Below are positions 13,371-30,564 of a DNA stretch of 32,357 bases, one piece after another. The notes beneath the pieces are model-generated. The model searched no databases. It saw only the letters and a list, made by a program, of their open reading frames with translations, and was not told the DNA's origin. How positions within the stretch are numbered: position 1 is the first letter of the stretch; each line of letters starts with the position of its first letter. Made by a program: the position numbers and the translations under genes. The stretch is from an uncultured Oscillospiraceae bacterium (lineage in GTDB: Bacteria > Bacillota > Clostridia > Oscillospirales > Oscillospiraceae), in NCBI GenBank assembly GCA_949494735.1, contig CATABD010000027.1, positions 1 through 32,357 on the forward strand, written 5' to 3'.

Positions 13371-14897
13371 TCACCGGGCCAGCTGCCCCAGGCGGGCCTG
13401 CCAGTTGGGAAGCTGCTCCCGGTACTGCTCCATCTGGGAGGGAATGGGATGGACGGTTACGGCCTCCCGTCCGGCCATATGGGCGGCCGCGTCGGCGATG
13501 TCCTGAAACAGTCCCGCGCCGATACCGGCGATCATGGCCGCGCCCTTGGCCCCCGCCATATCCGGATCCACGTCCGCCCGGACGATATCCATCTGGTACA
13601 TATCGGCCAGCATTTGCGTGAACACATCCGCTTTTGTGACGCCCCCGGCCACAAAAAGCCGCTTGATGCCGGCACCGGTGGAGTCCTCCACCTCCCGCAG
13701 CGCGCCCAGCATCTCAAAGGCCATCCCTTCCAGTACGGCGCGTACCATATCCGGCATGGCGGTGTGGGTGCCGATGCCAAGGAAGGCCGCGCGTCCGCCG
13801 ATAATGTCGGGATAGTAGTACAGCCCGTTGGCGCCGATGGGGGAGGAGCCTGCGGCCCGGTTCATGGCCGCGTAGAGCGCCGGGGAACCGCCGCGTCCGC
13901 CATCCAGCCCCGCGCAGACATTTCGGTTGAGCCAGGCATAGGAAGCGCCGCAGCCGTTGACGCTGGAGCTGATCTGCCAGTCGTCCCGGAATCCGCCGCC
14001 GGTGGCGTGGAGGGAATACCTGGATCCGGGCAGGGGACGGAATCGTGCCGCATCGGTGATGCGCATTCCGGTGGAGCCGAAGGTTCCGTAATTGGCGATG
14101 GCGCAGCCCTCCCCGATGGCGCCCTGGGCCAGAACGTGGGGGACCATGTCGTTGGTGCCCAGGAAGAGGGGTGTCCCGGCGGGAATGCCGGTGGCGTCCG
14201 CCGCCTCCCCGGACACCTGTCCGCAGCACTCGTCCGCATAGTGGAGGGGGAGGAAATCGTCCCCGTGGAGACCCACGGCATCGCAGATTCGTGCCACATA
14301 TTTTCGGGCAATCGGGTCATAGTTAAAGTGCATGCTTCCCCGGCACTCTGTCTCCCACATGTGGGGGGAGCCCAGGGTGCGGAGGAACAGGGCGTGCTCG
14401 CTCACCGCCCAGCGGGTGATTTTACCGCATATGTCGGGGAAGCGGTCTTGCAGGTACAGGATATTGCTGAGCATCCAGGGGACCGGGGTGGTCACCGCGG
14501 CGGTGTATTCCTCCACGGAAATTCCGGCCCTCTCCAGGGCTTTGGAGGCATAGAAGAAGTCCCCGCGCCGGCAATCGCTGGGGAAAATGATGCCGAAGGG
14601 TATGGAACCGTCCTGGGCGTACCCGATCAGCGGCCCCCCCGCGATGCTGAAGCTGACCCCGGCAATGGCGCGGCGGGCCTCCGGGCCGGGCAGGCCGTCC
14701 ACCGCTGTCTTGACGGCCTGGAGGATGCAGGCGGCCAGCTCCTCCGGGCGGCACACCGACTGGCCCGGCCGGGGCGTGTGGATGGGTACGTCAACGTTCG
14801 CGCCGCTGGCCAGTCTCCCCCGCATGTCGAAGCAGCCGGCGCGCACCCCGCTGTGCCCGCGGTCAATGCCAACCAAGTATTTGGTCATTTTCACCAC
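13371..14897 (-). CDS. FGGY-family carbohydrate kinase
   Basis: A 508-residue kinase of the FGGY family, which phosphorylates sugars, polyols or related compounds with ATP. The N-terminal phosphate loop is VGIDRGHSGVRAGCFD. The catalytic Asp is D250 in LGTNDMVPH, followed by the second nucleotide loop ANYGTFGSTG. The C-terminal FGGY signature is FVAGGVTKADVFTQMLADMY ending in AGAKGAAMIAGIGAG. Length is normal. The substrate cannot be read from sequence; the family includes xylulose, ribulose, erythritol, glycerol and fuculose kinases. The start is GTG 14,897 or ATG 14,888; AAAGGA lies closer to the former. It is divergent from the ABC operon across a shared regulatory region and probably phosphorylates an intermediate cleaved by the class II aldolase. 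Confidence 0.88.
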   Translation of the reverse strand: MVKMTKYLVGIDRGHSGVRAGCFDMRGRLASGANVDVPIHTPRPGQSVCRPEELAACILQAVKTAVDGLPGPEARRAIAGVSFSIAGGPLIGYAQDGSIPFGIIFPSDCRRGDFFYASKALERAGISVEEYTAAVTTPVPWMLSNILYLQDRFPDICGKITRWAVSEHALFLRTLGSPHMWETECRGSMHFNYDPIARKYVARICDAVGLHGDDFLPLHYADECCGQVSGEAADATGIPAGTPLFLGTNDMVPHVLAQGAIGEGCAIANYGTFGSTGMRITDAARFRPLPGSRYSLHATGGGFRDDWQISSSVNGCGASYAWLNRNVCAGLDGGRGGSPALYAAMNRAAGSSPIGANGLYYYPDIIGGRAAFLGIGTHTAMPDMVRAVLEGMAFEMLGALREVEDSTGAGIKRLFVAGGVTKADVFTQMLADMYQMDIVRADVDPDMAGAKGAAMIAGIGAGLFQDIADAAAHMAGREAVTVHPIPSQMEQYREQLPNWQARLGQLAR

Positions 14898-14930
14898 AAT
14901 TCCTTTCTAATTTTAATGGCATTTGCACAA

Positions 14931-14959
14931 TTGACACACTTCGACAATTGCGCTATGAT
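14931..14959 (+). promoter_or_regulatory. Strong sigma-70-type promoter of the ABC/catabolic operon
   Basis: TTGACA (14,931-14,936), a 17-bp spacer and TATGAT (14,954-14,959) form a near-consensus housekeeping promoter pointing at the binding-protein gene. Transcription should start near 14,966, inside the tandem operator boxes. Confidence 0.85.
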
Positions 14960-14960
14960 T

Positions 14961-14986
14961 AGTACAACGTTATAGTACAACGTTTT
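14961..14986. promoter_or_regulatory. Two tandem 13-bp operator-like boxes at the transcription start
   Basis: AGTACAACGTTAT (14,961-14,973) is followed with no gap by AGTACAACGTTTT (14,974-14,986). Each box has a central AACGTT and partial dyad symmetry about a CG, a shape typical of LacI-family operators. The boxes begin one base after the -10 element, so bound protein would block initiation. The same 12-mer GTACAACGTTAT recurs at 29,300-29,311 before the CoA-transferase gene. The LacI-type regulator at 27,283 is the likely ligand. Confidence 0.7.
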
Positions 14987-15037
14987 AACAAGAAATGCAA
15001 TGAAAATTTGCATAATAAAAGAAGGAGGATACATGAT

Positions 15038-16687
15038 ATGAAAAAAACTGGCCGCGCAAAGAGGAGCATGGCGCTGCTCCTGGCCCTGTGCATGGGCTTC
15101 TGCCTGCTGATGGCCGGCTGCGCAAGCAAGCCGGAGGTGGAATCCCCCGGCACGTCCGGCGCACCCAGCGCCGCGCCCGGCGCATCCCAGGATGTGAGCA
15201 GCCCGTCCGGCCCCAAGCAGGGCGGCGTACTCCGCTACGCCAGCGGCAACGGCATCGTGTCCCCCGGCTATACGCCGGAGTGCACAAACAACGCGTCCCT
15301 GCTCTTCCTGACCACCGCCTACGAGTCCCTGGTGACCTACGCGGAGGACGGCTCCACCGTCGGGCTGCTGGCCACCGGCTGGGAGATTGACGCGGACGAG
15401 CCCAGCATCACCTGGACCCTGCGGGAAAACGTGAAGTTTGCCGACGGCGAACCCTTCAATGCCGAAGCGGTGAAGCGGAACATTGAGGAGTACCAGTCCA
15501 AGGAGCGCACGGAGACGGCGGTGATCACCGCCATGGAGGTGATCGACGACACCCATATCAAAATGGTGCTGAGCAATTGGTCGTCCTCCGCGGTGGAGTC
15601 CATCGGCTTCTTTGTGTACTACATGTCGCCCAAGGCGCTGGAGGACGTGGACGCGCTGCGGACTTCCTCGTGCGGCACCGGCCCCTTCCAGGTGTCTGAG
15701 TTCAACCCGGGCGTCTCCATCAAGTACACCAAGAACGCCAACTACTGGCAGGAGGGCAAGCCCTATCTGGACGGTGTGGAAATCTACGTGGTAGAGCAGC
15801 AGACCACCCTGTCCTCCGCCTTCCAAGCCGGCGAGTACGACATGATTATGCTGGCGGATATGACCATCGCCTCCGACCTGATGGCCATGGGTTCCACCGC
15901 CAGCGGAACCATCGTCAACGAGACCAACACCAACGGCCAGGGGCTGACCATCTGCGGCCTCATCCCCAACAGCGCCGACGCCGGCTCCCCCTTTGCCGAC
16001 GCCAGGGTGCGCCGGGCCATGGCGCTGGCGGTGGATTCCAAGGCCATCTGCGACGCCTTTGGCTACGGCGTGTACACCCCCACCGACCAATGGGCCACGC
16101 CGGAGGCCATCACCTACAACACCGATATCACCCCCCTGGGCTATGACCAGGACAAGGCCCGGGCGCTGCTGGCCGAGGCGGGCTATCCCGACGGCTTCAA
16201 CACCACCCTCACCGTCTCCCCCTACGTCTCCGACTACTTCACCGCGGCGGCGGCCATGCTGGACGAGGTGGGCATCCACTGCGAGCTGAACATGGTGGAC
16301 AACGCCACCGAGGTGTCCATGTACTCCACCGGCAACTGGGAGGGGATTATGGGCCACTACGCCACCATCTCCCCGGACCTGGGCCTGTATATGGGCCGCC
16401 ATCTGGACTATAACGGCACCTTCTACGCCGCCGGCATCCAGCACCCCGAGGATCACATGGAGCTGCTGGAGAAGATCCGCGCGTCGTCCGACGAGAAGGA
16501 GAAGCTGGACTATGAGTGGCAGCTCCAGGCCCTGATTTACGACCAGGAGACGGGCAGCGCCCTGTTCGGCAAGCCGCTGCTGGTCATCAAGAACATGTAT
16601 TACAAGTATGACTACCTGAAGGACGACGGGCGCGCGGTGTGCGAGGCGAACATCTGGAGCATCGCCGATGCCTGGATGGACAAGTAG
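15038..16687 (+). CDS. Dpp/Opp-type (SBP family 5) substrate-binding lipoprotein
   Basis: A 549-residue extracellular binding lipoprotein of a peptide/nickel/oligosaccharide-type ABC importer. A basic N-terminus and hydrophobic run end in the lipobox LMAGC, with C28 the lipidation site. A Ser/Pro/Gly linker follows. Family 5 hallmarks include LATGWEIDADEPSITWTLRE, NVKFADGEPFNAEAVKRNIE and CGTGPFQVSEFNPGVSIKYT, followed by NANYWQEGKPYLDGVEI. ATG 15,038 is chosen: GGAGG lies 9 bases upstream and the signal peptide begins there, while the frame extends to 15,008. It is the first gene of the operon. Such proteins also bind glycosides, opines and amino-acid conjugates, so the ligand is open. Confidence 0.92.
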   Translation: MKKTGRAKRSMALLLALCMGFCLLMAGCASKPEVESPGTSGAPSAAPGASQDVSSPSGPKQGGVLRYASGNGIVSPGYTPECTNNASLLFLTTAYESLVTYAEDGSTVGLLATGWEIDADEPSITWTLRENVKFADGEPFNAEAVKRNIEEYQSKERTETAVITAMEVIDDTHIKMVLSNWSSSAVESIGFFVYYMSPKALEDVDALRTSSCGTGPFQVSEFNPGVSIKYTKNANYWQEGKPYLDGVEIYVVEQQTTLSSAFQAGEYDMIMLADMTIASDLMAMGSTASGTIVNETNTNGQGLTICGLIPNSADAGSPFADARVRRAMALAVDSKAICDAFGYGVYTPTDQWATPEAITYNTDITPLGYDQDKARALLAEAGYPDGFNTTLTVSPYVSDYFTAAAAMLDEVGIHCELNMVDNATEVSMYSTGNWEGIMGHYATISPDLGLYMGRHLDYNGTFYAAGIQHPEDHMELLEKIRASSDEKEKLDYEWQLQALIYDQETGSALFGKPLLVIKNMYYKYDYLKDDGRAVCEANIWSIADAWMDK

Positions 16688-16708
16688 GAGGCGGCGCACC
16701 AGACAAGT

Positions 16709-16753
16709 TTTGACAGGGAAGGGGCCGTGTCCCGCGCGGCCCCTTCCGTCAAA
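16709..16753 (+). other. Intercistronic hairpin between binding protein and permease genes
   Basis: The 19-base arm 16,709-16,727 (TTTGACAGGG to GGGGCCG) pairs with 16,737-16,753 (CGGCCCCTTCCGTCAAA) with a 2-base bulge and a 9-base loop. There is no T-run, so it is more likely an mRNA-stabilising or attenuating structure that gives excess binding protein over membrane components, as in malE-malF, than a full terminator. Confidence 0.65.
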
Positions 16754-16770
16754 GATGGGGGGACTGATTT

Positions 16771-17727
16771 GTGAGCAGCAAGCTGCTTAAAATGATTGGA
16801 CGAAGGATCGTGCAGTCGGTCATTGTGATATTCATTGTGACGCTGATGGTGTTTCTGCTGATGCAGCTGGTGCCCGGCGACGCGGTCACCAATTTCCTGG
16901 GGGCCAGCGCCACCGAGAGCCAGATCGAATACTACACAAAGCTCTTCGGCTATGACCAGCCCGTGCTGGTGCAGTACTTCAAATGGCTGGGCGGCCTGTT
17001 CCGCGGGGAGATGGGCAGGTCGATCTCCCTTCAGATGGAGATCTCCGACGTGCTGGTGCAGCGACTCCAGGTCACCCTGTCCATTGTGCTCCCCGCGTTT
17101 GTCATCGCGGTGGTCATCGGGGTGTCCCTGGGCATTGTGGCGGCGAAGAACCGGGGCACCGTCCTGGATTCGCTCATCTCAGTGGTGGCCAACATCGGCA
17201 TGTCCATGCCCATGTTCTGGTTTGGGCTGATGCTGATCCTGGTCTTTGCCAACATACTGCACATACTGCCCACCTCCGGGTATGTCTATCCCCAGGACGA
17301 CCTGGGCGCGGCCATCCGGCACTCGGTGCTGCCGGTGACGGTGCTGGCCCTCAACTACATGTCCCAGTTCTGCCGGCAGACCCGCTCCTCCATGCTGGAG
17401 GTCATCCGCCAGGACTATGTGACCACGGCCAAGGCCAAGGGCGTCAGCGCCAGGACCATCACCTTCCGCCACCAGCTGCGCAACGCCCTCATCCCTATCG
17501 TCACGGTGATGGGCGCCTCCCTGGGGGCCATGGTGGGCGGCACCGTGCTGGTGGAGAGCGTGTTCGTCATCCCGGGGCTGGGCAACCTGATGATCTCGGC
17601 CATCAAGGCCCGGGACTTCATGGTGGTGGAAAACGGTGTGCTGGTCATTTCCGTGGTGGTGGCGGTCTGCAACCTGGTGGTGGACGTGCTGTATGGCGTG
17701 ATCGACCCCAGAATCAGAAACGACTGA
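16771..17727 (+). CDS. DppB-type ABC transporter permease
   Basis: A 318-residue inner-membrane permease with about six membrane segments. The start MLxxIGRRIVQSVIVIFIVT and LMQLVPGDAVTNFLG are typical of DppB/OppB proteins. The EAA cytoplasmic loop that contacts the ATPases is seen in EVIRQDYVTTAKAKGVSART, followed by HQLRNALIPIVTVMG. The C-terminus DVLYGVIDPRIRND is the family's usual ending. The start is GTG with a G-rich RBS. It forms the pore with the next gene product. Confidence 0.92.
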   Translation: MSSKLLKMIGRRIVQSVIVIFIVTLMVFLLMQLVPGDAVTNFLGASATESQIEYYTKLFGYDQPVLVQYFKWLGGLFRGEMGRSISLQMEISDVLVQRLQVTLSIVLPAFVIAVVIGVSLGIVAAKNRGTVLDSLISVVANIGMSMPMFWFGLMLILVFANILHILPTSGYVYPQDDLGAAIRHSVLPVTVLALNYMSQFCRQTRSSMLEVIRQDYVTTAKAKGVSARTITFRHQLRNALIPIVTVMGASLGAMVGGTVLVESVFVIPGLGNLMISAIKARDFMVVENGVLVISVVVAVCNLVVDVLYGVIDPRIRND

Positions 17728-17751
17728 TCCCGGCGGGAAGTGGAGGTCAAC

Positions 17752-18672
17752 GTGAACAAAAAATCATTATGGAAGAAAATAACCGGCTCCAGGGTGTTCA
17801 AGGTGCTCACCGGGAAAAAGTCCACGGTGGTGTGCCTGGCCATTCTGCTGCTGCTGGTGGTAACCGCCGCCCTGGCGCCGGTGCTGGCGCCCTGCGACCC
17901 CTATGAGCAGAAGCTGGTCAGCCAGCTCCAGGGGATGAGCCCGGAGCACTGGCTGGGGACGGACTCCATGGGCCGGGACGTGCTGTCCCGGATCATCTAC
18001 GGCAGCCGGGTGTCGCTGGTGGTGGGCATCGCCTCCACGCTGATTGCCGGGGGCTTCGGGATGCTGGTGGGGCTTATCGCGGGCATGGGCGGGCGGATCG
18101 TGGACACGGTGCTCATGCGGATCATGGACGCCATGATGTCGGTGCCCATGATTATCCTGGCCCTCTTCCTGGGCACCATTTTCGGCAAGGGGCTGGGCAA
18201 TATCTGCGTGGCTATCGGCATCTGCATGATCCCCAGCTACGCCCGGGTGACCCGGGGCCAGGTGCTGTCGGTGAAGGAGATGGACTATGTGACGGCGGGC
18301 GTGCTGTGCGGCGCGTCCAAAATCAAAAATACCCTGGTGCACATTTTTCCAAACTGCGTCTCCGCCAACCTGGTTCTCATGACCATGAACTTGGGCAGCG
18401 CCATCCTCAGCGAGGCGGCGCTGAGCTTTCTGGGCATGGGCATCAACCCGCCCACCGCTAGCTGGGGCGGGATGGTGAACGACGGCTATAAGTACCTGTC
18501 CAGGGATCCCATCATCGCCATCGCGCCCGGCATCTGCATCATGATCGTGGTGCTCTGCTTCAACATGGTGGGCGATTCGCTCCGGGACGCGCTGGACCCC
18601 AAGCTCCGCGGGACGCTGGCCCGGCGCGGGAAGCGGACCAAGCGGGCGGGCGCAGCCCGGGCCGCCGGATGA
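17752..18672 (+). CDS. DppC-type ABC transporter permease
   Basis: A 306-residue permease, partner of the DppB-type protein. After a basic N-terminus, the first membrane segment (VVCLAILLLLVVTAALAPVL) leads into the DppC hallmark HWLGTDSMGRDVLSRIIYGS. The EAA loop lies in VKEMDYVTAGVLCGASKIKN, and SEAALSFLGMGINPPTASWG is the conserved C-terminal motif. The tail is basic. GTG 17,752 is chosen because GGAGG lies 5 bases before it; an in-frame GTG at 17,740 would overlap that site. The stop overlaps an upstream in-frame ATG of the next gene. Confidence 0.92.
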   Translation: MNKKSLWKKITGSRVFKVLTGKKSTVVCLAILLLLVVTAALAPVLAPCDPYEQKLVSQLQGMSPEHWLGTDSMGRDVLSRIIYGSRVSLVVGIASTLIAGGFGMLVGLIAGMGGRIVDTVLMRIMDAMMSVPMIILALFLGTIFGKGLGNICVAIGICMIPSYARVTRGQVLSVKEMDYVTAGVLCGASKIKNTLVHIFPNCVSANLVLMTMNLGSAILSEAALSFLGMGINPPTASWGGMVNDGYKYLSRDPIIAIAPGICIMIVVLCFNMVGDSLRDALDPKLRGTLARRGKRTKRAGAARAAG

Positions 18673-18686
18673 AGGGGAGGGGGACT

Positions 18687-19667
18687 ATGTCAAAGAAACT
18701 GTTATCAATCCGGGATCTGAGCGTGGACTACAATACGGAGATATCCAGGGTATACGCGGTGAACGGCCTGTCCTTCGATCTGGACTACGGGGAGACGCTG
18801 GGGCTGGTGGGCGAGACCGGCGCGGGCAAAACCACCGCCTGCCTGAGCATCATGGGCCTTCTGCCCGAGGGGATCGGCGAGGTGGTGGAGGGGTCCATCA
18901 CCCTGGACGGCGAGGATATTCTGCGCGTACCCGACTCCAGGCTCCGGGAGCTGCGGGGGCGGACGGTGTCCATGATTTTTCAGGACCCCATGTCCAGCCT
19001 GAACCCGGTGCTCACCGTGGGCGACCAGATTTTAGAGGTGCTCCAGGAACACAACAAGGGCAAAAAGAAAGAGGAACTGGAAAAAACCGTCGATAACATG
19101 ATGGAGTTGGTGGGCATCCCGGCCAACCGCAAAAACGAGTATCCCCACGAGTTTTCCGGCGGGATGAAGCAGCGGATCGTCATCGCCATCGCCCTGGCCT
19201 GCGAGCCCAAGCTGATTTTGGCGGACGAGCCCACCACCGCCCTGGACGTGACCATCCAGGCCCAGATGCTGGGGCTGATCCACGAGCTGCAGCAGCGGCT
19301 GAACACGGCCATGATCCTGGTCACCCACGATTTGGGGGTGGTAGCCCAGACCTGCGAGAAGGTGGCGGTGATGTACGCCGGACAGTGCGTGGAATACGGC
19401 AGCGTGGAGGCCATTTTCGACAGCCAGACCCTCCACCCGTACACCCGGGGGCTGTTCAACGCCATCCCCAAGCTGGACGAGGACGCCCAGCGCCTGGAGA
19501 CCATTGAGGGCATGATCCCCGACCCGTCGGTGAAGATTGAGGGCTGCCGGTTCGCCCAGCGCTGCAAATTCGCCACCCAGCGGTGCGGGCAGGCCCCCGG
19601 CATGGTCCGGGTGGCCCCCGACCACATGATCCGGTGCCACTTGTTTGATAAGCGGACGGAGGGGTGA
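18687..19667 (+). CDS. DppD-type ABC transporter ATPase
   Basis: A 326-residue ATP-binding subunit. Walker A is GETGAGKTT with K48, the Q-loop is MIFQDPMSSLNP, the signature is FSGGMKQR (156-163), Walker B is LILADEPTTALD, and the H-loop is LVTHDLGVVA. The C-terminal oligopeptide/dipeptide transporter domain has four Cys around FAQRCKFATQRCGQAPGM and HMIRCHLF, the site of the known Fe-S cluster in this ATPase class. ATG 18,687 is chosen over 18,669 because GGAGGGGG stands just before it. With the next protein it powers the importer. Confidence 0.92.
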   Translation: MSKKLLSIRDLSVDYNTEISRVYAVNGLSFDLDYGETLGLVGETGAGKTTACLSIMGLLPEGIGEVVEGSITLDGEDILRVPDSRLRELRGRTVSMIFQDPMSSLNPVLTVGDQILEVLQEHNKGKKKEELEKTVDNMMELVGIPANRKNEYPHEFSGGMKQRIVIAIALACEPKLILADEPTTALDVTIQAQMLGLIHELQQRLNTAMILVTHDLGVVAQTCEKVAVMYAGQCVEYGSVEAIFDSQTLHPYTRGLFNAIPKLDEDAQRLETIEGMIPDPSVKIEGCRFAQRCKFATQRCGQAPGMVRVAPDHMIRCHLFDKRTEG

Positions 19668-19670
19668 GCC

Positions 19671-20630
19671 ATGGAAGAAAGAACGTTGATCCAGGTCAAA
19701 GACCTGAAAAAGTATTTCAAGACCTCAAAGGGGATGCTCCACGCGGTGGACGGGGTCAGCTTCTCCATCCCCAAAGGGCGCACCCTGGGGGTGGTGGGCG
19801 AATCCGGCTGCGGAAAGTCCACCCTGGGGAAGGTGCTGCTGCACCTGCACGAGTCCACCGCGGGGCAGATTTTTTTCGACGGGGTGGACATCACCCGCTT
19901 CAATGAGCGGCAGCTGCGGGATTACCGGAAGCGGATGCAGATGATCTTCCAGGACCCACAGGCGTCGCTGGACCCGCGGAAAAATGTGTCCAGCCTGATC
20001 GGGGAGCCGCTGAAAAACTATAAGCTCACCCAGGGCAAGGCGGAGTACGAGGAGCGGGTGGACGAGATCATGCGCACCGTTGGGCTGGCCCCCGCCTACA
20101 GGGAGAGCTACTCCCATGAGCTGGACGGCGGGCGGCGCCAGCGCATCGGCATCGGCCGCGCCCTGGCGGTGGACCCGGAATTCATCGTGTGCGACGAGCC
20201 GGTGTCCGCCCTGGACGTGTCCATCCAGGCCCAGATTTTGAACCTGCTGATGGACCTCCAGGACTCCCGGGGGCTTACGTATATCTTCATCACCCACGAC
20301 CTGAGCGTGGTCAAGCACATCAGCCATGACATCATCGTCATGTACCTGGGCCAATGCGTGGAGTACGCCGACTCCAAAACCCTGTTCAAGCGTCCCCTGC
20401 ATCCCTACACCAACGGGCTTTTGGACGCCGTGCCTATCCCCAGCCTGCGCCAGCGCAGGCTCAACACCCAGGTCATGCGGGGCGAGCTCACCAGCCCTAT
20501 CGAGCCCAAGCCGGGCTGCCGCTTCGCCGCCCGGTGTCCCCACGCCACCGACGCGTGCCGGGGACAGGACATCCCCCTCAGAGAGGTGGAGCCGGGGCAT
20601 TGGGTGGCGTGCCGGCTGGTGTGCCCATAG
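19671..20630 (+). CDS. DppF-type ABC transporter ATPase with altered signature (LDGG)
   Basis: A 319-residue second ATPase subunit. Walker A is GESGCGKST, the Q-loop is MIFQDPQASLDPRKN, Walker B is FIVCDEPVSALD and the H-loop is FITHDLSVVKH. The ABC signature reads LDGGRRQR (from residue 151), so the Ser that normally contacts the ATP gamma phosphate is Asp (D152). The C-terminal domain carries Cys residues in CRFAARCPHATDACRGQ and VACRLVC. The start ATG follows GGAGGGG and lies 3 bases after the stop of the partner gene. The Ser change may make one of the two ATP sites weak, as in asymmetric ABC transporters. Confidence 0.9.
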   Translation: MEERTLIQVKDLKKYFKTSKGMLHAVDGVSFSIPKGRTLGVVGESGCGKSTLGKVLLHLHESTAGQIFFDGVDITRFNERQLRDYRKRMQMIFQDPQASLDPRKNVSSLIGEPLKNYKLTQGKAEYEERVDEIMRTVGLAPAYRESYSHELDGGRRQRIGIGRALAVDPEFIVCDEPVSALDVSIQAQILNLLMDLQDSRGLTYIFITHDLSVVKHISHDIIVMYLGQCVEYADSKTLFKRPLHPYTNGLLDAVPIPSLRQRRLNTQVMRGELTSPIEPKPGCRFAARCPHATDACRGQDIPLREVEPGHWVACRLVCP

Positions 20631-23526: not shown

Positions 23527-24576
23527 ATGTCTGAGAAAATGAAAGTCGTGGCCATCACCGGCGACCACGAGGTAAGTATCAAGGAAGTGCGCAGGCCGGC
23601 GCCGGAGAAGAACCAGGTGCTCGTCCGCGTGCGCGCGTGCGCGCTGTGCACCTGGGAGCAGCGCATGTTCACCCGGGACAGCAAGGTGCCCCTGCCCTTT
23701 GTGGGCGGCCACGAGCTGGTGGGCGAAATCTGCGCCCTGGGCGGCAGCGTGGATGAAAAGGCCTATCCCGTGGGCAGCCGGGTGGCGGTGCGTCTGGTCC
23801 ACCAGTGCGGGGAGTGCTATTTCTGCCGGGTGGGCCACCCGGAGCTGTGCGCCCACCTCAACGACGTGGACATGTCCCAGATGGACATACCGGGCACCGG
23901 CGGCTTGAGCGAGTACCTGAACGTCAGCGTCAGCCAGGTCTATTTCCTCAACCAGGATATGCCCGACCAGACCGCTGTCTTTGCCGAGCCCCTGGCCTGC
24001 GTGCTCAATTCCATAGAAAAGGGACAGATTGAGATTTCCGACGACGTGGTGGTCATCGGCGGCGGTATCATGGGCCTGCTCCACGTCATGGCGGCAAAGC
24101 TGTGCGGCGCGCGGGTCATTTTGAGCGAGCCGGACCGGTCCCGCCGGGAGCTGGCCCTGGAGCTGGGGGCGGACATGGCTATCGACCCCCTGGCCGCCGA
24201 CCCGGTGGAGGAGGTCAAGCGCATTAACGGGGGCCGGGGCGCGGAGGTGGTGTTCAACACCACGCCGGTCTCCGCCGTGGCGGGGCAGGCGCTGAAGATG
24301 GCCTCGCCCATGGGCCGGGTGGTCATGTACAGCTCCCAGCACCCGGACAGGCCCGTGGAGGTCAGCCCCGGCTGGCTGCACAGCGCCAACCCGGTCATCA
24401 CCGGCGCGGTCAACCCGTCGGTGCGGTCTTTCTACCACGCGGTGCAGCTGCTCAACAAGGGCCTCATCAACCCCGCCAAGCTATTTTCCGGGGAGTTTGG
24501 GCTGGACGAGGCGCAGAAGGCTTTTGAGGCGGCCATCCGCCCAGACACCTTCCGCATCGCCATCCGAATGGCCTGA
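23527..24576 (+). CDS. Zinc-dependent medium-chain alcohol/polyol dehydrogenase
   Basis: A 349-residue MDR-superfamily dehydrogenase. Catalytic zinc ligands are C41 (ALCTWE), H62 and E63 (GGHELVGE), with E in FAEPLAC as the likely distal ligand. The structural zinc site is C94, C97, C100 and C108 (HQCGECYFCRVGHPELC). The Rossmann loop is VVIGGGIMGLLHV, and the following acidic residue in LSEPDRS favours NAD. Sorbitol, threonine and polyol dehydrogenases share this plan; the exact substrate is unknown. ATG with GGAGGTAACT upstream. It may oxidise the secondary alcohol of the imported polyol to a ketone ready for phosphorylation and aldol cleavage. Confidence 0.9.
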   Translation: MSEKMKVVAITGDHEVSIKEVRRPAPEKNQVLVRVRACALCTWEQRMFTRDSKVPLPFVGGHELVGEICALGGSVDEKAYPVGSRVAVRLVHQCGECYFCRVGHPELCAHLNDVDMSQMDIPGTGGLSEYLNVSVSQVYFLNQDMPDQTAVFAEPLACVLNSIEKGQIEISDDVVVIGGGIMGLLHVMAAKLCGARVILSEPDRSRRELALELGADMAIDPLAADPVEEVKRINGGRGAEVVFNTTPVSAVAGQALKMASPMGRVVMYSSQHPDRPVEVSPGWLHSANPVITGAVNPSVRSFYHAVQLLNKGLINPAKLFSGEFGLDEAQKAFEAAIRPDTFRIAIRMA

Positions 24577-24611
24577 GACGGGCCGGACAAAACGCAAAGG
24601 AGAGAAGAATT

Positions 24612-25433
24612 ATGCTGGTTTCCATGGTAAAATCAATGAATGAGGCCAAAAAGAAGGGCTACTGCGTGCCTGCCTTCGGCGTGGGCAACGAGGTGAACGT
24701 CCGGGCCGTGCTGGACGCCGCCGAGGCCAAGCGTTCCCCCGTGATCCTGCTGGTGATGGCCATGAACACCCCCGATATGCAGTATTTCGGGCGCATCTGC
24801 CAGGACCTGGGGGTGCGGGCCAGCGTGCCGGTGTCCGTCATCCTGGACCACGGCGCCACCTATGAGGAGGCGATGAAGGCCATCCAGGCGGGCTTCACCG
24901 ACATCATGATCGACCGCTCCACCCTCCCCTATGAGGAGAACGTGGCCCAGGTCAAAGAGCTGGTGAAGGCCGCCCACGCCATCGGCGTGGGGGTGGAGGG
25001 CGAGCTGGGCCATGTGGGCTTTGGCGACAACGACGTCCACAACGCCTTCACCGTGCCCAGTGAGGCGGTGGATTTTGTGGAGCGGACGGGCATCGACGCG
25101 CTGGCCGTCTCCATCGGCACCATCCACGGCGCCTACAAGGGCGAGCCCAACCTCCAGTTTGAGCTGCTGGAGGAGCTGGCGGCCAAGGTGGGCGTCCCCC
25201 TGGCCCTCCACGGCGGGTCCGGCACCGGGGACGAAAACCTGGCCCGGGCGTGCCGGATGGGCATCAACAAGCTGAACATCGCCTACGACCTCTACCGCGG
25301 GGCCATTGACGCCATCCAGGCGGTGGACTGCAGCGGGAACGGGGCCTATGGCCTGTTCGCCTACATCCACGACGGGATCAAAAAGACGGCGGAACACTTC
25401 ATGGACCTCACCGGCTCCACGGGCAAGGCGTAA
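24612..25433 (+). CDS. Class II (zinc) fructose/tagatose-bisphosphate-type aldolase
   Basis: A 273-residue class II aldolase. Zinc-site residues are visible: H80 with catalytic D79 (VILDHGATYEE), H172 (GTIHGAYKG) and H200 (LALHGGSGTGD). EGELGHVG carries the conserved Glu. The phosphate-binding part follows (GINKLNIAYDLYRG). The length fits the short tagatose/fructose-bisphosphate type. These enzymes split ketose 1-phosphates or bisphosphates into DHAP and an aldehyde. The RBS is GGAGAG. With the FGGY kinase and two dehydrogenases it makes a complete oxidise-phosphorylate-cleave scheme. The actual substrate, for example a deoxy or branched sugar phosphate, is not readable. Confidence 0.9.
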   Translation: MLVSMVKSMNEAKKKGYCVPAFGVGNEVNVRAVLDAAEAKRSPVILLVMAMNTPDMQYFGRICQDLGVRASVPVSVILDHGATYEEAMKAIQAGFTDIMIDRSTLPYEENVAQVKELVKAAHAIGVGVEGELGHVGFGDNDVHNAFTVPSEAVDFVERTGIDALAVSIGTIHGAYKGEPNLQFELLEELAAKVGVPLALHGGSGTGDENLARACRMGINKLNIAYDLYRGAIDAIQAVDCSGNGAYGLFAYIHDGIKKTAEHFMDLTGSTGKA

Positions 25434-25459
25434 CGGGCCGCAGCGGAAGGTGCCGGAAG

Positions 25460-26827
25460 ATGAAGAAGGTTGCGATAGGCGGCGGGCAGGGCTTCTGGGG
25501 GGACTCCCCGGACGCCGCCGTCCACATGATAAATACCGCCGACATCCAGTACATGGCCTGCGACTATTTGGCGGAGCTCACCCTGTCCATCATGGCCAAG
25601 CAGCAGCTCAAGGACCCGAAGAAGGGGTACGCGCCCGACTTTGTGACCCGCATTTTAAAGGACGCGGGGCGCACGGCCAAGGAGCGGAACATCCGGCTGA
25701 TTACCAACGCCGGGGGCATGAATATCCAGGGCTGCGTGGACGCCATCCGAGACTGGGCCCAAGGCGAGGGGCTGAAGGGGTATAAGATCGGGTATGTCAC
25801 CGGCGACGACATCAAGGCGCGGATCCCACAGCTTCTGAAGGACGGCTGGACGTTCCCCAACCTGGACGGCGAGGGGGAGTTCACCGAAATCGCCGACAAA
25901 ATTTACAACTGCAACGCCTACATCGGCCACGAGGGGATCGAGGCGTGCATCGACCAGGGTGCGGACACGGTGATTACCGGCCGCGCGGCGGACAGCGCGC
26001 TGTTCCTGGCTCCGCTCAAGCACGAGCTGGGCTGGGCGGCGGACGACTGGGACAGCCTGGCCCGGGGCATTATGGCGGGCCACCTGCTGGAGTGCGGCGG
26101 GCAGGGGGCCGGCGGCAATTATATGTACGACTGGCGCCATGTGCCCCGGATGGACGAGCTGGGCTTTCCCATCGCGGAGCTGACTGCGGACACCCTGGAG
26201 CTGACCAAGGCCCCGGACTGCGGGGGCGTGATCTGCGAGCAGAGCACAAAGGAGCAGTTCCTTTACGAGGTGCTGGACCCGGCCAACTACATCACCCCCG
26301 ACGTGGTGGTGGACGTGACCGGGGCGGCCGTCCGGCAGCAAGGGGAAAACCGGGTGCGCATCGAGGGCATCCGGGGCAGGCGCAGGCCGGACACGCTGAA
26401 GCTGTGCGTGGGCTACCACAAGGGCTGGAAAACGGTGAGTATGCTCAGCTTTGCCTGGCCGGACGCCTATGAGAAGGCCCAATACTGCGCGGAAGTGATT
26501 ATGAAGAAGATGGCGCGCATCGGGATGCGGGCCGACGACGTGCACATCAGCTACATCGGGCTCAACAGCCTCCACCTCAACGTGGCGGACACCAGCGAGC
26601 GGGCCATAAGGGATCTGAACGAATGCGTGCTGCGCATCGCGGTGTTCAGCCGGGACAAGGCCGAGTGCGCCAAAATCATCCCGGAGATCAGCCCCCTCCA
26701 GCTCAACGGACCGCCCGGGGCGTCCTTCTTCGGCGGGCGGGCCCACGTGCAGGAGGTGATGGCCCTGTGGCCCACCACCGTGCCCAGGGACGCGGTGAAG
26801 GTGTCCGGCCGCGTGATCGAAGTCTGA
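25460..26827 (+). CDS. AtuA-family (DUF1446) protein, N-terminal domain form
   Basis: A 455-residue protein of the AtuA/DUF1446 family, named after acyclic terpene utilisation in Pseudomonas; its reaction is not established. Typical features are the N-terminal IGGGQGFWGDSPDAA, then YMACDYLAELTLSIMAKQQ, LITNAGGMN, CNAYIGHEGIEACIDQGAD and VITGRAADSALFLAPLKHEL, followed by GHLLECGGQGAGGNY. In many relatives a ferredoxin-fold domain is fused at the C-terminus; here it is a separate gene immediately downstream. ATG with a weak GGAAG upstream. Its place beside an aldolase and in a locus with a CoA-transferase suggests work on a hydroxy-acyl or acyl-CoA intermediate, which is inference. Confidence 0.85.
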   Translation: MKKVAIGGGQGFWGDSPDAAVHMINTADIQYMACDYLAELTLSIMAKQQLKDPKKGYAPDFVTRILKDAGRTAKERNIRLITNAGGMNIQGCVDAIRDWAQGEGLKGYKIGYVTGDDIKARIPQLLKDGWTFPNLDGEGEFTEIADKIYNCNAYIGHEGIEACIDQGADTVITGRAADSALFLAPLKHELGWAADDWDSLARGIMAGHLLECGGQGAGGNYMYDWRHVPRMDELGFPIAELTADTLELTKAPDCGGVICEQSTKEQFLYEVLDPANYITPDVVVDVTGAAVRQQGENRVRIEGIRGRRRPDTLKLCVGYHKGWKTVSMLSFAWPDAYEKAQYCAEVIMKKMARIGMRADDVHISYIGLNSLHLNVADTSERAIRDLNECVLRIAVFSRDKAECAKIIPEISPLQLNGPPGASFFGGRAHVQEVMALWPTTVPRDAVKVSGRVIEV

Positions 26828-26845
26828 GTCCAGGAGGAATGGGAA

Positions 26846-27178
26846 ATGCCTGAGATATACTTACACGAGATCGCCCACGGCAGAAGCGGGGACAAGGGGG
26901 ACACCAGCAATGTGTGCGTGTTCGCCCGAAAGCCGGAGTATTACCCCATCATTGAGCGCGAGGTCACCCCGGAAAAGCTGAAGGCTTTCTTCGGGGACAT
27001 GGTAAAGGGCCCCATCACGCGCTACAGCGTCCCCAGCCTCGGCGGTTTCAATTTTGTGATGGAGCACGCCCTGGGCGGCGGGGCCACCATGAGCCTGCGG
27101 CTGGACAGCCTGGGCAAATCCATGGGCAGCGCGGTCATGCGCCTGAAAATCCACGTGGACGAGGGCGAGCTGACATAA
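26846..27178 (+). CDS. AtuA-like ferredoxin-fold subunit
   Basis: A 110-residue protein equal to the C-terminal ferredoxin-fold domain of long AtuA proteins. The hallmark is AHGRSGDKGDTSNVCVFARK, followed by RYSVPSLGGFNFVMEHALGG and SLRLDSLGKSMGS. It starts 18 bases after the AtuA gene with AGGAGG 7 bases before the ATG, so both halves are made together and probably form one complex. It is the last gene of the long operon; a short hairpin (GCGGG, loop TTT, CCCGC, 27,181-27,193) without a T-run follows. Confidence 0.85.
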   Translation: MPEIYLHEIAHGRSGDKGDTSNVCVFARKPEYYPIIEREVTPEKLKAFFGDMVKGPITRYSVPSLGGFNFVMEHALGGGATMSLRLDSLGKSMGSAVMRLKIHVDEGELT

Positions 27179-27216
27179 AAGCGGGTTTCCCGCGGCACAA
27201 CTTCCCCCATATAGAC

Positions 27217-27246
27217 TTGCAACCCCATACTGGATATGATATCATA
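27217..27246 (+). promoter_or_regulatory. Promoter of the LacI-type regulator with overlapping palindrome
   Basis: TTGCAA (27,217-27,222), a 17-bp spacer and TATCAT (27,240-27,245), with an extended -10 TG, form a good promoter. The perfect 12-bp palindrome TATGATATCATA (27,235-27,246) covers the -10 and may be a regulator site. It does not match the AACGTT boxes elsewhere, so it may bind another protein or be accidental. Confidence 0.6.
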
Positions 27247-27282
27247 CATATTTAGCGTGGAAAAGTTTAGAGAGAGGAGCTT

Positions 27283-28356
27283 GTGCTGCGGGATGCCGGG
27301 CTGACGGTATGCCGCGGCTTTCACGGTGGGTTGCGGATGATTACGATAAAAGAGATTGCGAAAATTGTGGGGCTGTCCCCCAGCACCGTTTCCATTGTCC
27401 TGAGCGGGAAAGCGGAGAAAAGAGGAATCTCGCCGCAGACGGTGGAAAAAATCAAACGGACGGCGGCGGAGCACGGCTATGTGCCCAATACGCCCGCCAT
27501 CCGCCTTCGGCTGGCGTCCAATGTCACCACGTATCGGATTGTGATTTTCTGGACGGCCGATTTCCGGGAAAGCGTGATGCTCCGGTTTATCAAAGAGATC
27601 GAACGCAGAATCCTCGACGAGAAAGCCATGGATTTTGAGGTGCTGCTGAAGGTCTACAAAAACGACCACCTCAGGGAAGCGATGACGGAAGAGCTGATCC
27701 GCTCCTGCCACGGCGCCATTATCTGCAACGCCTCCGCGGAGGATATGGCGTTTGTGGAGGACAGCCATTTCTCCCGGCCTGTGGTCCTCTATAACCGCTA
27801 CTCCAGGAAGTACCCAGGCGTCACCTTGGACGACAGGCGAATCGGCGCCCTCCCGGCCCAGGTGTTTGGTGCCCATGGGTGCAGAAAGCCGTCTATTATC
27901 ACCTCCCCGTCCACCTTCAGCGGGATGGATCTGCGCTGGAGCGCCTACGAGCAGACGTGCACGGACTGCGGGATGGAGCCCCCGGTGAAGATCGTGTGCG
28001 GGGCGGGGATATCCGACGGATATCAGGCCACCAGGGAGCTGATGGAGGTCCACCCGGATACCGACGGGGTGTTCTATTCCAGCGACGAGCTGGCCATGGG
28101 CGGACTCCGGTACTTTTACGAGGCCGGGGTGCCCATTCCCGGCCGGGTGAAGCTCATCGCGCTGGGCTACAACAGCCTGAAAAACACCGAGCTGAGCATA
28201 CCCGCCCTCTCGGTGATCGACATCCCCATTGAGCGGGCGGCAGATCGGTGCCTGACCATCCTCACCAAGCTGATGCGGTATGAAAAGGTTGATCCGTCTG
28301 AAAACGAATTCATCAGTTCGGAGTATATCCCGAGGGAGAGTTGCCCAGGGGTTTAA
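27283..28356 (+). CDS. LacI-family transcriptional regulator
   Basis: A protein of up to 357 residues with a LacI HTH and hinge (MITIKEIAKIVGLSPSTVSI, VLSGKAEKRGISPQTVEKIK, HGYVPNTPA), then a periplasmic-binding-like effector domain ending with VIDIPIERAADRCLTILTKL. Two starts are possible: GTG 27,283, which has GAGGAG 3 bases away, and ATG 27,337, which gives the usual LacI N-terminus (339 residues) but has a poor RBS. The hinge lacks a typical LLAL box-type sequence and reads IRLRLASNVTTYRI. It is well placed to control the upstream operon and probably binds the AACGTT boxes. The effector is unknown, likely the imported substrate or a phosphorylated intermediate. Confidence 0.9.
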   Translation: MLRDAGLTVCRGFHGGLRMITIKEIAKIVGLSPSTVSIVLSGKAEKRGISPQTVEKIKRTAAEHGYVPNTPAIRLRLASNVTTYRIVIFWTADFRESVMLRFIKEIERRILDEKAMDFEVLLKVYKNDHLREAMTEELIRSCHGAIICNASAEDMAFVEDSHFSRPVVLYNRYSRKYPGVTLDDRRIGALPAQVFGAHGCRKPSIITSPSTFSGMDLRWSAYEQTCTDCGMEPPVKIVCGAGISDGYQATRELMEVHPDTDGVFYSSDELAMGGLRYFYEAGVPIPGRVKLIALGYNSLKNTELSIPALSVIDIPIERAADRCLTILTKLMRYEKVDPSENEFISSEYIPRESCPGV

Positions 28357-28359
28357 GCT

Positions 28360-29244
28360 ATGTCAAACAAGTTCAAACAGAATCTTTTTGCCGCCGCCGC
28401 AGTGACCCTGTGGGGGTCGGCCATCCCTGTCACCAAGATGATCGGCGCCAGCGTCTCCCCCTTCGGCATGTCGGCGGTGAAGTGCCTGGTTGCCGCGGTG
28501 CTGCTGGGCGCGGCGGCCCTTGTCAGGAAGGCCCGGCGGCCCAGCGGGTGGCGGGAGCTTCTCCTGCTGCTGGCCGCCAGCCTGAGCGGGTTTTCGCTGT
28601 ATATGGTGACCTCCACCATCGGTATGATGACCACGCCCGCCTCCACCGCCAGCATCATCGCCTCCCTCAGTCCCATCATGACGGCGGTGGGCGCGGTGGC
28701 CTTTTACCGCCAGCGGATCAGCGCCGTGGGCTGGATATCCATCGCCGCAGCGTTCGCGGGGGTTTTAATCATCGTGCTGTGGAACGGGGAGCTGGTGATA
28801 CGGCCGGGCATCCTGTGGCTGCTGCTGTCTGCGGCCCTGTTCAGCGCCTACAGCCTGCTGGTCCCCCTGCTGGGCGGGAAATTCACCGCAGATGAGATTG
28901 TGACCTATGCCATGATTGCCGCCGCCATCGTGCTCTCCCCCTTCCTGCCCCAGGCGGCGGGGGAGCTGTGGGCCGCCCCGGTGTCCGCCCGCTGGCTGAT
29001 GCTCTACATGGGGGTGTTTCCCGGGTGTGCGGCCTACCTGCTCTGGTCGGGGGCCTTTACCCTGGCGGAGAACAGCGGGGACGTGGCCAACTACATGTAT
29101 CTGACCCCGGTAACCTCCACCGTGGCGGCCTTTTTCCTGCTGGGGGAGGTGCCGGACGGGGGGATCTACATTGGTGGGGCTATCATCATCCTGTCCGTCG
29201 TGGTGTTCAACATGAAGGGGGAGCGCAGGCCGGACCCCGCCTGA
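28360..29244 (+). CDS. EamA-family (DMT superfamily) transporter
   Basis: A 294-residue integral membrane protein with about ten helices in two EamA repeats. The first begins LFAAAAVTLWGSAIPVTKMI and the second near LVIRPGILWLLLSAALFSAY; each repeat ends in the conserved pattern SLSPIMTAVGAVAFYRQRIS and LTPVTSTVAAFFLLGEVPDG. Such proteins export or import metabolites. It starts 3 bases after the regulator's stop codon, with AGGGG in the regulator's last codons, so the two are co-transcribed. It may remove a toxic intermediate or end product of the pathway, or take up a related compound. Confidence 0.87.
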   Translation: MSNKFKQNLFAAAAVTLWGSAIPVTKMIGASVSPFGMSAVKCLVAAVLLGAAALVRKARRPSGWRELLLLLAASLSGFSLYMVTSTIGMMTTPASTASIIASLSPIMTAVGAVAFYRQRISAVGWISIAAAFAGVLIIVLWNGELVIRPGILWLLLSAALFSAYSLLVPLLGGKFTADEIVTYAMIAAAIVLSPFLPQAAGELWAAPVSARWLMLYMGVFPGCAAYLLWSGAFTLAENSGDVANYMYLTPVTSTVAAFFLLGEVPDGGIYIGGAIIILSVVVFNMKGERRPDPA

Positions 29245-29298
29245 AGCCGCGGCCGTATACAGGGGCGGGAAGGCCCGGAACAAGGGAAGGCCGCACAC

Positions 29299-29312
29299 GG
29301 TACAACGTTATA
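29299..29312. promoter_or_regulatory. Operator-like box upstream of the CoA-transferase gene
   Basis: GGTACAACGTTATA shares the 12-mer GTACAACGTTAT with the first box at 14,961. It stands 59 bases before the CoA-transferase ATG in otherwise GC-rich intergenic DNA. It suggests that this gene belongs to the same regulon. I see no convincing -35/-10 pair next to it. Confidence 0.6.
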
Positions 29313-29370
29313 GCGCGCCCGGAGCTGGCCGGTTTGCCTTCGGCGGGCGCGGTCAGAAGGAGAATGAAGA

Positions 29371-30564
29371 ATGTCCAACCAAAGAGCACTGGAAGGGATC
29401 ACTGTGCTGGATCTGACCAAGGTGCTGGCCGGTCCGTACTGTGGAAGCATTTTGGCGGATTTCGGCGCGGAGATCATCAAGATCGAACCCCCCGGAAGGG
29501 GGGACGACAGCCGCAGCTACGGCCCCCACCTGAACGGGGGGAGCCTCTATTATGAAAACCTGAACCGGGGCAAACGGGGCCTCACCCTGAACCTGAAAAC
29601 CGAGGAGGGGAAGCAGGTGTTCCGGCGCCTGGCGGAAAAGGCGGATGTGGTCATTGAGAACTACCGCCCGGGGGTGATGGACCGGTTCGGCCTGGGGTAC
29701 GAGGCGCTCAAGCAGATCAACCCCCGCCTCATTTACGGGGCCATCACCGGGTTTGGCTCCACGGGACCCTTCTCCCAGAGACCGGGCTACGATATCATCT
29801 CCCAGGCCATGGGGGGAATGATGAGCGTGACGGGCCAGGAGGGGGACCCCCCCACCCGTTCCGGCAACGCCCTGGGGGATATCCTGGGAGGGATGAATCT
29901 GGCCATCGGGGTGCTGGTGGCGCTGCAGGCCCGGAATGTGACCGGGGAGGGGCAGTACGTGGACGTGGCCCTGGTGGACTCGGTGGCCGCCTCCCTGGAG
30001 CAGGCATGGCAGCGGTATTTTGTCTCCGGGGAGCTGCCCACCCGGCACGGCAATTCCTATGACGCCATCGCGCCGTACGATTCCTACGCGGCCAAGGACG
30101 GGTTTATCGTCATCGGCTGCGGCAATCAAAAGCTGTTTGAGATTCTGTGCCGGGAGCTGCTGAAAAAGCCGGAGCTGGTTGAGGACGAGCGGTTCCTCAG
30201 CGTCTCCCGGCGGGTGAAGAACAACAAGGCGCTGAAGCGGTACATTGAGGACTGGCTCAAGGATTACACGGTGGAGGAGGCAATTGAGCTGGTGCTGGCC
30301 CACAAAATCCCCGCCGGGCCCATCTGGAGCCTGAAGGAGCTGGCGGAGAGCGAGCACGCCAAGGCCAGGAATATGTTTACCCAGATCGACCATCCACGGT
30401 TTGGCCCCATCAAGCTCAATTCTTCCCCCATCAAGCTCAGCGAAACCCCGGCGGAGATCCGCGCCGGGAGTCCCGGCCTGGGCCAGCACAACGGGGAGAT
30501 CCTGGGCGGCCTGGGCTACACGGAGGAGGAGATCGCGCGCTTCCGGGAGATGGGCGTGATCTGA
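29371..30564 (+). CDS. CaiB/BaiF family III CoA-transferase
   Basis: A 397-residue family III CoA-transferase, which moves CoA between carboxylic acids. Family marks are LEGITVLDLTKVLAGPYCGS, ADFGAEIIKIEPPGRGD, LNLKTEEGKQVF, NYRPGVMDRFGLGY and the catalytic Asp, D170 in GNALGDILGG, matching D169 of formyl-CoA transferase. GEGQYVDVALVDSVAA is the dimer-region motif. Length is normal. Preceded by AGAAGGAG. An operator-like box sits upstream, and a terminator follows at 30,617. It probably activates the acyl part of the imported compound, or an acid product, to its CoA ester. Confidence 0.92.
   Translation: MSNQRALEGITVLDLTKVLAGPYCGSILADFGAEIIKIEPPGRGDDSRSYGPHLNGGSLYYENLNRGKRGLTLNLKTEEGKQVFRRLAEKADVVIENYRPGVMDRFGLGYEALKQINPRLIYGAITGFGSTGPFSQRPGYDIISQAMGGMMSVTGQEGDPPTRSGNALGDILGGMNLAIGVLVALQARNVTGEGQYVDVALVDSVAASLEQAWQRYFVSGELPTRHGNSYDAIAPYDSYAAKDGFIVIGCGNQKLFEILCRELLKKPELVEDERFLSVSRRVKNNKALKRYIEDWLKDYTVEEAIELVLAHKIPAGPIWSLKELAESEHAKARNMFTQIDHPRFGPIKLNSSPIKLSETPAEIRAGSPGLGQHNGEILGGLGYTEEEIARFREMGVI

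Follow-up and report, generated by a model that had tools for sequence, protein, structure and literature searches.

3-Hydroxy-3-methylglutarate (HMG) is the acid behind cholesterol synthesis, and in mevalonate catabolism a degradative-class HMG-coenzyme A (CoA) reductase (HMGR), run oxidatively, converts mevalonate to HMG-CoA, an established reaction that is followed by HMG-CoA lyase. Genes of the AtuA family occur widely, and a reaction has been assigned to few of them. Sets of kinase, aldolase and dehydrogenase are known from E. coli (fuc/ydj type). AtuA of the Atu pathway is described, in the excerpts of PMC4847356, with a CoA ester, an acetate-releasing cleavage of 3-hydroxy-3-alkylglutaryl-CoA is proposed there, and AtuA and HMG-CoA lyase are named as separate enzymes. 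According to excerpts of PMC4682846, the glutamate-fermentation cluster of E. coli holds an AtuA-family (DUF1446) gene, and the fate of citramalate there is unclear. Here we describe a locus of an uncultured Oscillospiraceae bacterium related to gut bacteria (GCA_949494735.1, contig CATABD010000027.1) in which two AtuA-type genes stand with an importer, a serine hydrolase, a CoA-transferase and a set of polyol enzymes. The window, meaning the whole stretch of DNA that was analysed, is the entire contig C27 of 32,357 bases, from an assembly of 3.18 Mb in 214 contigs (84.9% complete).

We consider it likely, reading from sequence, that this is a LacI-controlled catabolic locus for HMG esterified to a polyol, sugar or glycoside, an amide linkage being less likely. 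The Dpp-type ATP-binding cassette (ABC) importer would bring the conjugate into the cell, where the CocE hydrolase would release HMG and the alcohol. HMG would be converted to HMG-CoA by the family III CoA-transferase and cleaved by AtuA with AtuA_ferredoxin to acetoacetyl-CoA and acetate, by analogy with the Atu pathway; acetoacetyl-CoA would then enter butyrate synthesis or be taken by thiolase, whose gene some relatives carry in the locus and this genome carries elsewhere. The alcohol would here be oxidised by the medium-chain dehydrogenase (MDR), phosphorylated by the FGGY kinase and aldol-cleaved by the class II aldolase, and the aldehyde reduced by the iron-type alcohol dehydrogenase (Fe-ADH). 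What can be read directly is the genes, their order, the operators they have in common, the recurrence of the core across species and the linkage of the AtuA clade with HMGR.

Gene families were assigned by Pfam and NCBIfam scans of the window proteins. All the components named in an earlier note on this DNA, which had read the locus as uptake and breakdown of an acylated or amide-linked polyol or sugar, were found within 13371-30564; the LacI regulator, the EamA transporter and the PAS/sigma-54 activator are additions to its gene list. The features are as follows.

13371..14897, minus strand: FGGY-family carbohydrate kinase (FGGY_N/FGGY_C), divergent from the importer
14962..14987, unstranded: two LacI-type operators, 13 bp apart (TACAACGTTATA, TACAACGTTTTA), in the kinase/importer interval; core kept in relatives
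15008..16687, plus strand: SBP_bac_5 substrate-binding protein (Pfam, 220 bits)
16771..17727, plus strand: DppB-type permease (BPD; Pfam)
17740..18672, plus strand: DppC-type permease (BPD; Pfam)
18669..19667, plus strand: DppD-type ATPase (oligopeptide-type; Pfam)
19671..20630, plus strand: DppF-type ATPase (oligopeptide-type; Pfam)
20646..22358, plus strand: CocE/NonD serine hydrolase, proposed HMG-esterase (TIGR00976; Peptidase_S15 in Pfam)
22351..23493, plus strand: Fe-ADH (Pfam/NCBIfam), putatively of the alcohol arm
23527..24576, plus strand: zinc-type MDR (Pfam/NCBIfam), putatively of the alcohol arm
24612..25433, plus strand: class II ketose-bisphosphate-type aldolase (F_bP_aldolase; Pfam/NCBIfam), putatively of the alcohol arm
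25460..26827, plus strand: AtuA large chain, proposed HMG-CoA-cleaving lyase (PF07287, 419 bits)
26846..27178, plus strand: AtuA_ferredoxin-like small chain, partner of AtuA (PF23544, 98.5 bits)
27283..28356, plus strand: LacI-family regulator, presumed operator reader (Pfam)
28360..29244, plus strand: EamA transporter (Pfam)
29300..29312, unstranded: LacI-type operator 5' of the CoA-transferase (core match)
29371..30564, plus strand: family III CoA-transferase (CoA_transf_3), proposed to activate HMG (PF02515, 445 bits)
30631..32217, plus strand: PAS/sigma-54-dependent activator (Pfam), just beyond 30564, membership of the system uncertain

The reading frames of CocE and Fe-ADH overlap by 8 bases and intergenic gaps from CocE through AtuA_ferredoxin are at most 35 bases, so these genes are read as one transcription unit. 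The AtuA and AtuA_ferredoxin domains lie on adjoining genes, which places the pair in the AtuA family. Rfam and tRNA scans of the window gave no match. Between the binding-protein and first permease genes an inverted repeat (TTGACAGGGAAGGGGCC...GGCCCCTTCCGTCAA, 16710-16752) was seen, perhaps a stem-loop allowing excess binding protein.

Four aligned AtuA proteins served as the query for related loci in contigs of one genome per species, and the best 80 of 482 relatives were used. Neighbouring reading frames of these loci were clustered and the window proteins were also compared by tblastn; clustering and tblastn gave 59 versus 58 loci for the CoA-transferase, 42 versus 41 for LacI and 9 versus 12 for the substrate-binding protein. 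Many of the 80 loci end at contig ends, so absences are soft, and some records are duplicates (L064 = G055, L086 = G033, L112 = G298 and L136 = L112, with L for loci and G for genomes). At ≥40% identity the binding protein, both permeases, CocE, AtuA, AtuA_ferredoxin and CoA-transferase occur together in seven loci by tblastn (L047, L053, L054, L056, L057, L060 and L103), which places the importer beside CocE, AtuA and CoA-transferase in each and supports the earlier idea of an acyl conjugate that is imported, hydrolysed and consumed on its acyl side through CoA. Gene order in Blautia schinkii (L060) is LacI, binding protein, permeases, ATPases, CocE, AtuA, AtuA_ferredoxin, CoA-transferase and thiolase. 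Clustering of all 80 loci found AtuA_ferredoxin in 78, family III CoA-transferase in 59, LacI in 42, CocE in 31, thiolase in 17, HMGR in 15, sigma-54 activator in 13, Dpp-type permeases in 13, TctA in 11, type B carboxylesterase in seven and aconitase X in five. Relatives of the binding protein at ≥40% identity were found by tblastn in ten loci, and CocE directly adjoins AtuA, AtuA_ferredoxin or CoA-transferase in 21 of its 31; the EamA transporter had relatives in none of the 80 by tblastn. In G032 (same genus, outside the 80) and G055 (same family) AtuA, AtuA_ferredoxin, CoA-transferase and CocE are present and the polyol genes absent. In a comparison of the locus DNA with plasmids, the matches listed (20 of 34 records) were short stretches only, and those with an annotation fell in ABC-transporter genes; among the 20 and 15 plasmid matches listed for the CocE and FGGY kinase proteins, respectively, none exceeded 32%.

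The acid half is indicated by HMGR, which lies beside AtuA-AtuA_ferredoxin in 15 of the 80 loci (two from Planctomycetaceae), with TctA present as well in 11 of these. The cluster concerned (cluster 9) is degradative HMGR by TIGR00532, with 488 and 467 bits for the two members scanned, against a cutoff of 260. Among the eight neighbourhoods listed, three (L083, L110, L112) read sigma-54 activator-AtuA-AtuA_ferredoxin-HMGR-TctB-TctA with no other gene between, L113 adds a CoA-transferase, L087 has further genes between, and L074, L089 and L105 carry aconitase X. Simple HMGR operons hold no other candidate, which leaves AtuA as the only candidate to cleave HMG-CoA. Within the window's class, HMGR exceeded its cutoff in only two of 391 genomes, G298 and G120. 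The former is L112's own record and so adds no independent case; in G120 (L135, 8371-12325) HMGR stands with TctA, a sigma-54 activator and, directly beside it, an HMGL-like gene. Among NCBIfam models that gene scores best against HMG-CoA lyase, at 164.7 bits (below the cutoff of 246), and no AtuA was found in the 20 kb covered. In this single case one lyase seems to have taken the place of the other. From the HMGR linkage and this replacement we infer that AtuA would function as an HMG-CoA lyase. Three plasmid regions were examined for AtuA. An archaeal plasmid of Halalkalicoccus (L149, 4721-7660, NZ_CP144462.1) has HMGR, AtuA and AtuA_ferredoxin in a row, the reductase being named by others' annotation; a Sagittula plasmid has the two AtuA domains fused and accompanied, like those of the terpene pathway, by genes for enoyl-CoA hydratase and biotin carboxylase; and a Paraburkholderia plasmid has AtuA and AtuA_ferredoxin as separate genes in a group with other acyl-CoA genes.

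CoA-transferase and HMGR alternate among the 80 loci (57 have the transferase alone, 13 HMGR alone, two both and eight neither), and within one subclade (support 96/97) L090 and L091 carry the CoA-transferase and L081, L083 and L086 carry HMGR. The alternation is suggestive of two enzymes that would both supply HMG-CoA. In L074 (11730-14728), L089 (14579-18701) and L105 (4169-13807) HMGR adjoins the genes for both subunits of aconitase X; Dpp-type ABC genes are near, as is an S-Me-THD protein in L089 and L105. Some fungal siderophores carry anhydromevalonate as their acyl group, and these loci may encode a route for it in which aconitase X hydrates it to mevalonate.

The AlphaFold model of AtuA (mean pLDDT 89.5) has one full-length match among solved structures, citramalate lyase with ADP and pyruvate (9evf; TM-score 0.74, E 1.5e-28, 18% identity), which the sequence search also finds, at E 5e-5. 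AtuA and AtuA_ferredoxin match their own Pfam families only, and not the HMGL-like family PF00682; the Pfam results for the window genes included no geranyl-CoA carboxylase, hydratase or citronellyl-CoA dehydrogenase, the enzymes that would mark the Atu pathway itself. HMG and citramalate are one CH2 apart, and HMG and the terpene intermediate differ in the side chain. Each of the three would release acetate (CH2-COO beside a tertiary alcohol), and for this reason the clade is proposed to cleave HMG-CoA, most likely, by analogy, to acetoacetyl-CoA and acetate. Thiolase in 17 of the 80 loci and a thiolase gene elsewhere in the window's genome (50% identity) both fit acetoacetyl-CoA as product. 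The acyl half of the earlier note is accordingly narrowed here to HMG as the putative acid.

The hydrolase belongs to CocE/NonD (TIGR00976, 248 bits against a cutoff of 66.3) and its nearest solved relatives are cocaine esterases; the motif residues S136, D261 and H291 are present, which we take to be catalytic from cocaine esterase. The CoA-transferase is found in every one of the 35 loci that have CocE or type B carboxylesterase, and none of the 15 HMGR loci holds CocE, type B carboxylesterase or thiolase. The CoA-transferase has D170 in its GDxxGG motif; against the succinyl-CoA:mesaconate, oxalate and glutarate equivalogs it reached at best 338.6 bits (cutoff 700), which establishes the family only. 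The binding protein scored below the NCBIfam equivalog cutoffs for NikA (148 versus 393), DppA (71 versus 1005) and OppA (36 versus 947).

The 12-base operator core TAYAACGTTRTA has three sites in the window at ≤1 mismatch, versus 0.01 expected, two between kinase and importer and one before the CoA-transferase. The earlier note had spoken of one regulon, and copies of GTACAACGTT at 14962, 14975 and 29300, with none in 100 shuffles, give this direct support. The core was used because a scan for the 16-base palindrome misses the window sites, whose copies are imperfect. It is present in 36 of the 42 LacI-encoding loci, with 77 sites in 709 kb and three in reversed sequences. Perfect 16-base copies (AGTACAACGTTGTACT) precede AtuA in L043, L047, L048, L050 and L082, and single core sites stand before AtuA, importer, CocE, LacI, sugar ABC, carboxylesterase, CoA-transferase, thiolase and GH3 genes. 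Both zero-mismatch core matches in the window's own genome sit in this locus; the four one-mismatch places elsewhere are not evidence, because the backward control pattern gives 12. The palindromic operator, at predicted sites, is common to module genes across species as in a LacI regulon, and the LacI regulator is predicted to bind the TACAACGTTRTA operator. Relatives of the sigma-54 activator (up to 36% identity) were found in 13 of the 80 loci, all without the LacI cluster, and the sigma-54 promoter pattern gave three matches versus 5.9 by chance, so sigma-54 control is not supported.

The order hydrolase-Fe-ADH-MDR-aldolase-AtuA, which the earlier note had proposed to search for, did not recur: by tblastn the 80 loci held no aldolase, one FGGY kinase (23%), one Fe-ADH (25%) and two MDRs (34% and 25%). 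Its idea of an acyl conjugate is supported by co-occurrence, and that of the polyol genes as a conserved part of the set is not; they are an accessory arm in this genome. At E≤1e-60 the FGGY kinase matched nothing but itself in 99 genomes or in 391 class genomes (own included), while in the same 99 the aldolase had 47-48% matches in G015, in G021 and elsewhere in its own genome, and the MDR had one other match (46%). The nearest solved relatives of the kinase are autoinducer-2 (AI-2), gluconate and glycerol kinases (about 60 bits), a distance too great for its substrate to be named; it likely phosphorylates a ketose derived from the alcohol. Analogous genes, non-orthologous to those of the window, were seen in two relatives only: L047 has a short-chain dehydrogenase, a split transketolase and an FGGY kinase after thiolase, with an MDR one gene further, and L101 has an MDR after CocE. 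Kinase, aldolase and both dehydrogenases probably serve the alcohol half. GH3 glycosidase genes and sugar-type ABC genes are also present in four of the type B carboxylesterase loci (L065, L080, L085, L102); in L065 a stretch of about 8 kb holding other genes separates the GH3 gene from AtuA. Two unrelated esterase families, with sugar-type ABC and GH3 genes in four loci, suggest HMG-glycosides as the conjugate. Conjugates of this kind occur in food: bergamot flavonoids with HMG esterified to glucose are described in the excerpts of PMC9598738 and PMC5748778.

Four rivals to an HMG ester split through HMG-CoA were weighed (ALTERNATIVES): cleavage of the free acid, an amide-linked conjugate, a polyol operon unrelated to the module, and a different 3-hydroxy-3-methyl acid. 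It seems unlikely to us that AtuA and AtuA_ferredoxin act on the free acid, HMG giving acetoacetate and acetate and the CoA-transferase then activating acetoacetate. CoA-transferase and thiolase would then act in order, and the sole full-length fold match is a lyase that splits free citramalate to pyruvate and acetate, but HMGR-type operons deliver HMG-CoA, in three of the eight listed neighbourhoods with no other enzyme gene between, and the terpene-pathway AtuA is described with a CoA ester in the excerpts of its source. We likewise hold it improbable that the acyl part (HMG or another acyl group) is amide-linked to an amino acid or dipeptide and that CocE is an S15-type amidase or peptidase. 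The cocaine esterases nearest to CocE, and the type B carboxylesterase of seven loci, four with GH3 and sugar-type ABC genes, argue for an ester, against the Peptidase_S15 match of CocE, the Dpp type of the importer, the AbgT transporter gene adjoining CocE in G055 and the beta-Ala-His dipeptidase-like gene adjoining it in G032. Little probability is also given to two unrelated neighbours, one operon for a polyol or sugar and one for acyl-CoA, that have no substrate in common: FGGY kinase, Fe-ADH, MDR and aldolase do lack orthologues in the 80 loci and are rare in relatives, yet the kinase has its operator region in common with the importer, the other three sit between CocE and AtuA with gaps of at most 35 bases, and analogous sugar genes adjoin the module in L047 and L101. 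That the acid is another one, such as citramalate or a longer 3-alkyl-3-hydroxyglutarate, is quite improbable, since the HMGR linkage is found in the same clade at 52-66% identity, and in archaea, even if the solved relative is a citramalate lyase and the Atu substrate, in the excerpts of its source, has a longer side chain.

Several points weigh against an HMG ester and its cleavage as HMG-CoA. CocE and type B carboxylesterase are both missing from the stretch covered in 45 of the 80 loci, and conservation does not extend to the polyol arm. The CoA-transferase resembles enzymes of several specificities to about the same degree and reaches no equivalog cutoff. An AbgT transporter is near the module in G055 (= L064) and L051, and a beta-Ala-His dipeptidase in G032, either of which could mean an amide or free acid. 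The operator core also occurs in 12 of the 38 loci with no LacI gene in view (17 core sites in 639 kb, three in reversed sequences). HMGR belongs to other members of the clade and not to the window's genome; it takes about four changes on the AtuA tree, so the Fisher p of 9e-11, which compares loci with genomes, overstates independence, and only three independent pairs bear on the alternation of HMGR and CoA-transferase (p 0.25). The HMGR loci were also considered as the deepest or ancestral ones, an idea dropped because the AtuA tree, made without L011 and L136, leaves the deep order unresolved.

Other genes were observed around AtuA in relatives. A DUF2201 VWA-like/metallopeptidase protein and an ATPase-like protein (weak RuvB match) lie 3' of AtuA in eight of the 80 loci (L035, L036, L037, L038, L043, L048, L050, L059), after AtuA_ferredoxin or CoA-transferase, and seven of the eight hold a BspA-type leucine-rich-repeat protein (one protein scanned). 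ATPase-VWA pairs can mature cofactors. A CitMHS citrate-type symporter is present in the AtuA/CoA-transferase loci L036, L037, L038, L059 and L066, with no CocE or carboxylesterase in view, as if HMG entered as the free acid. In the window itself, ParA and two ParB-like genes (9619-13061, minus strand) adjoin the kinase end of the locus, and beyond them are a sortase gene (6556-7377, minus strand) and, near it, a gene for a surface protein of 1753 residues that combines a thioester (TED) domain with 12 SpaA stretches (240-5501, minus strand).

As far as our searches tell, within the open-access literature (most subscription papers lie outside it) the module, its operator and HMG as a substrate of the AtuA clade are new, and the parts belong to known families; nothing linking AtuA with HMG catabolism was found there. 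One AtuA clade would gain a concrete, testable substrate, and a cross-species regulon with a readable operator makes further members findable by sequence. We suggest, tentatively and at somewhat less than even confidence, that gut and rumen anaerobes consume HMG conjugates such as plant HMG-glycosides, that the non-homologous AtuA and AtuA_ferredoxin replace HMG-CoA lyase, giving acetoacetyl-CoA and acetate to feed thiolase or butyrate synthesis, and that the pair may be among the missing first HMG steps in Snodgrassella alvi. According to excerpts of PMC11343714, S. alvi uses HMG of its host and produces acetate, and its genome annotation lacks the first two steps; the gap fits the proposed role of AtuA, which could explain an open step in microbial HMG use. 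If true, gut bacteria would have a route to consume HMG, bergamot-type HMG-flavonoid glycosides and mevalonate.

Among described systems, the Atu pathway of Pseudomonas and Thauera has the same AtuA and AtuA_ferredoxin domains and, in the excerpts of PMC4847356, the same proposed acetate-releasing cleavage. In contrast, the present locus is without geranyl-CoA carboxylase or hydratase, carries the two domains on two genes, and its proposed substrate has methyl for isohexenyl and would come from ester hydrolysis and CoA transfer. Mevalonate catabolism has the HMG-CoA intermediate in common with it, and HMGR operons fall within the same AtuA clade; here AtuA would stand instead of the HMGL-type lyase, and CoA-transferase and esterase are found with no HMGR. 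The succinate-hydroxymethylglutarate CoA-transferase (PDB 9br6) is of family III, is named for HMG and scores 276 bits to the window protein, but YfdE (301 bits) and formyl-CoA transferase (290 bits) score higher, so HMG specificity of the CoA-transferase is not established. The E. coli fuc/ydj-type sets resemble the alcohol arm in having a kinase, a class II aldolase (the window aldolase matches YdjI among others) and a dehydrogenase; no orthologous set was found, and here these genes are joined to an HMG module. Citramalate lyase CmlA (PDB 9erq, 9evf) differs in its substrate, citramalate, and in belonging to a distant branch by sequence, and it has in common with AtuA the full-length fold and an analogous retro-aldol chemistry.

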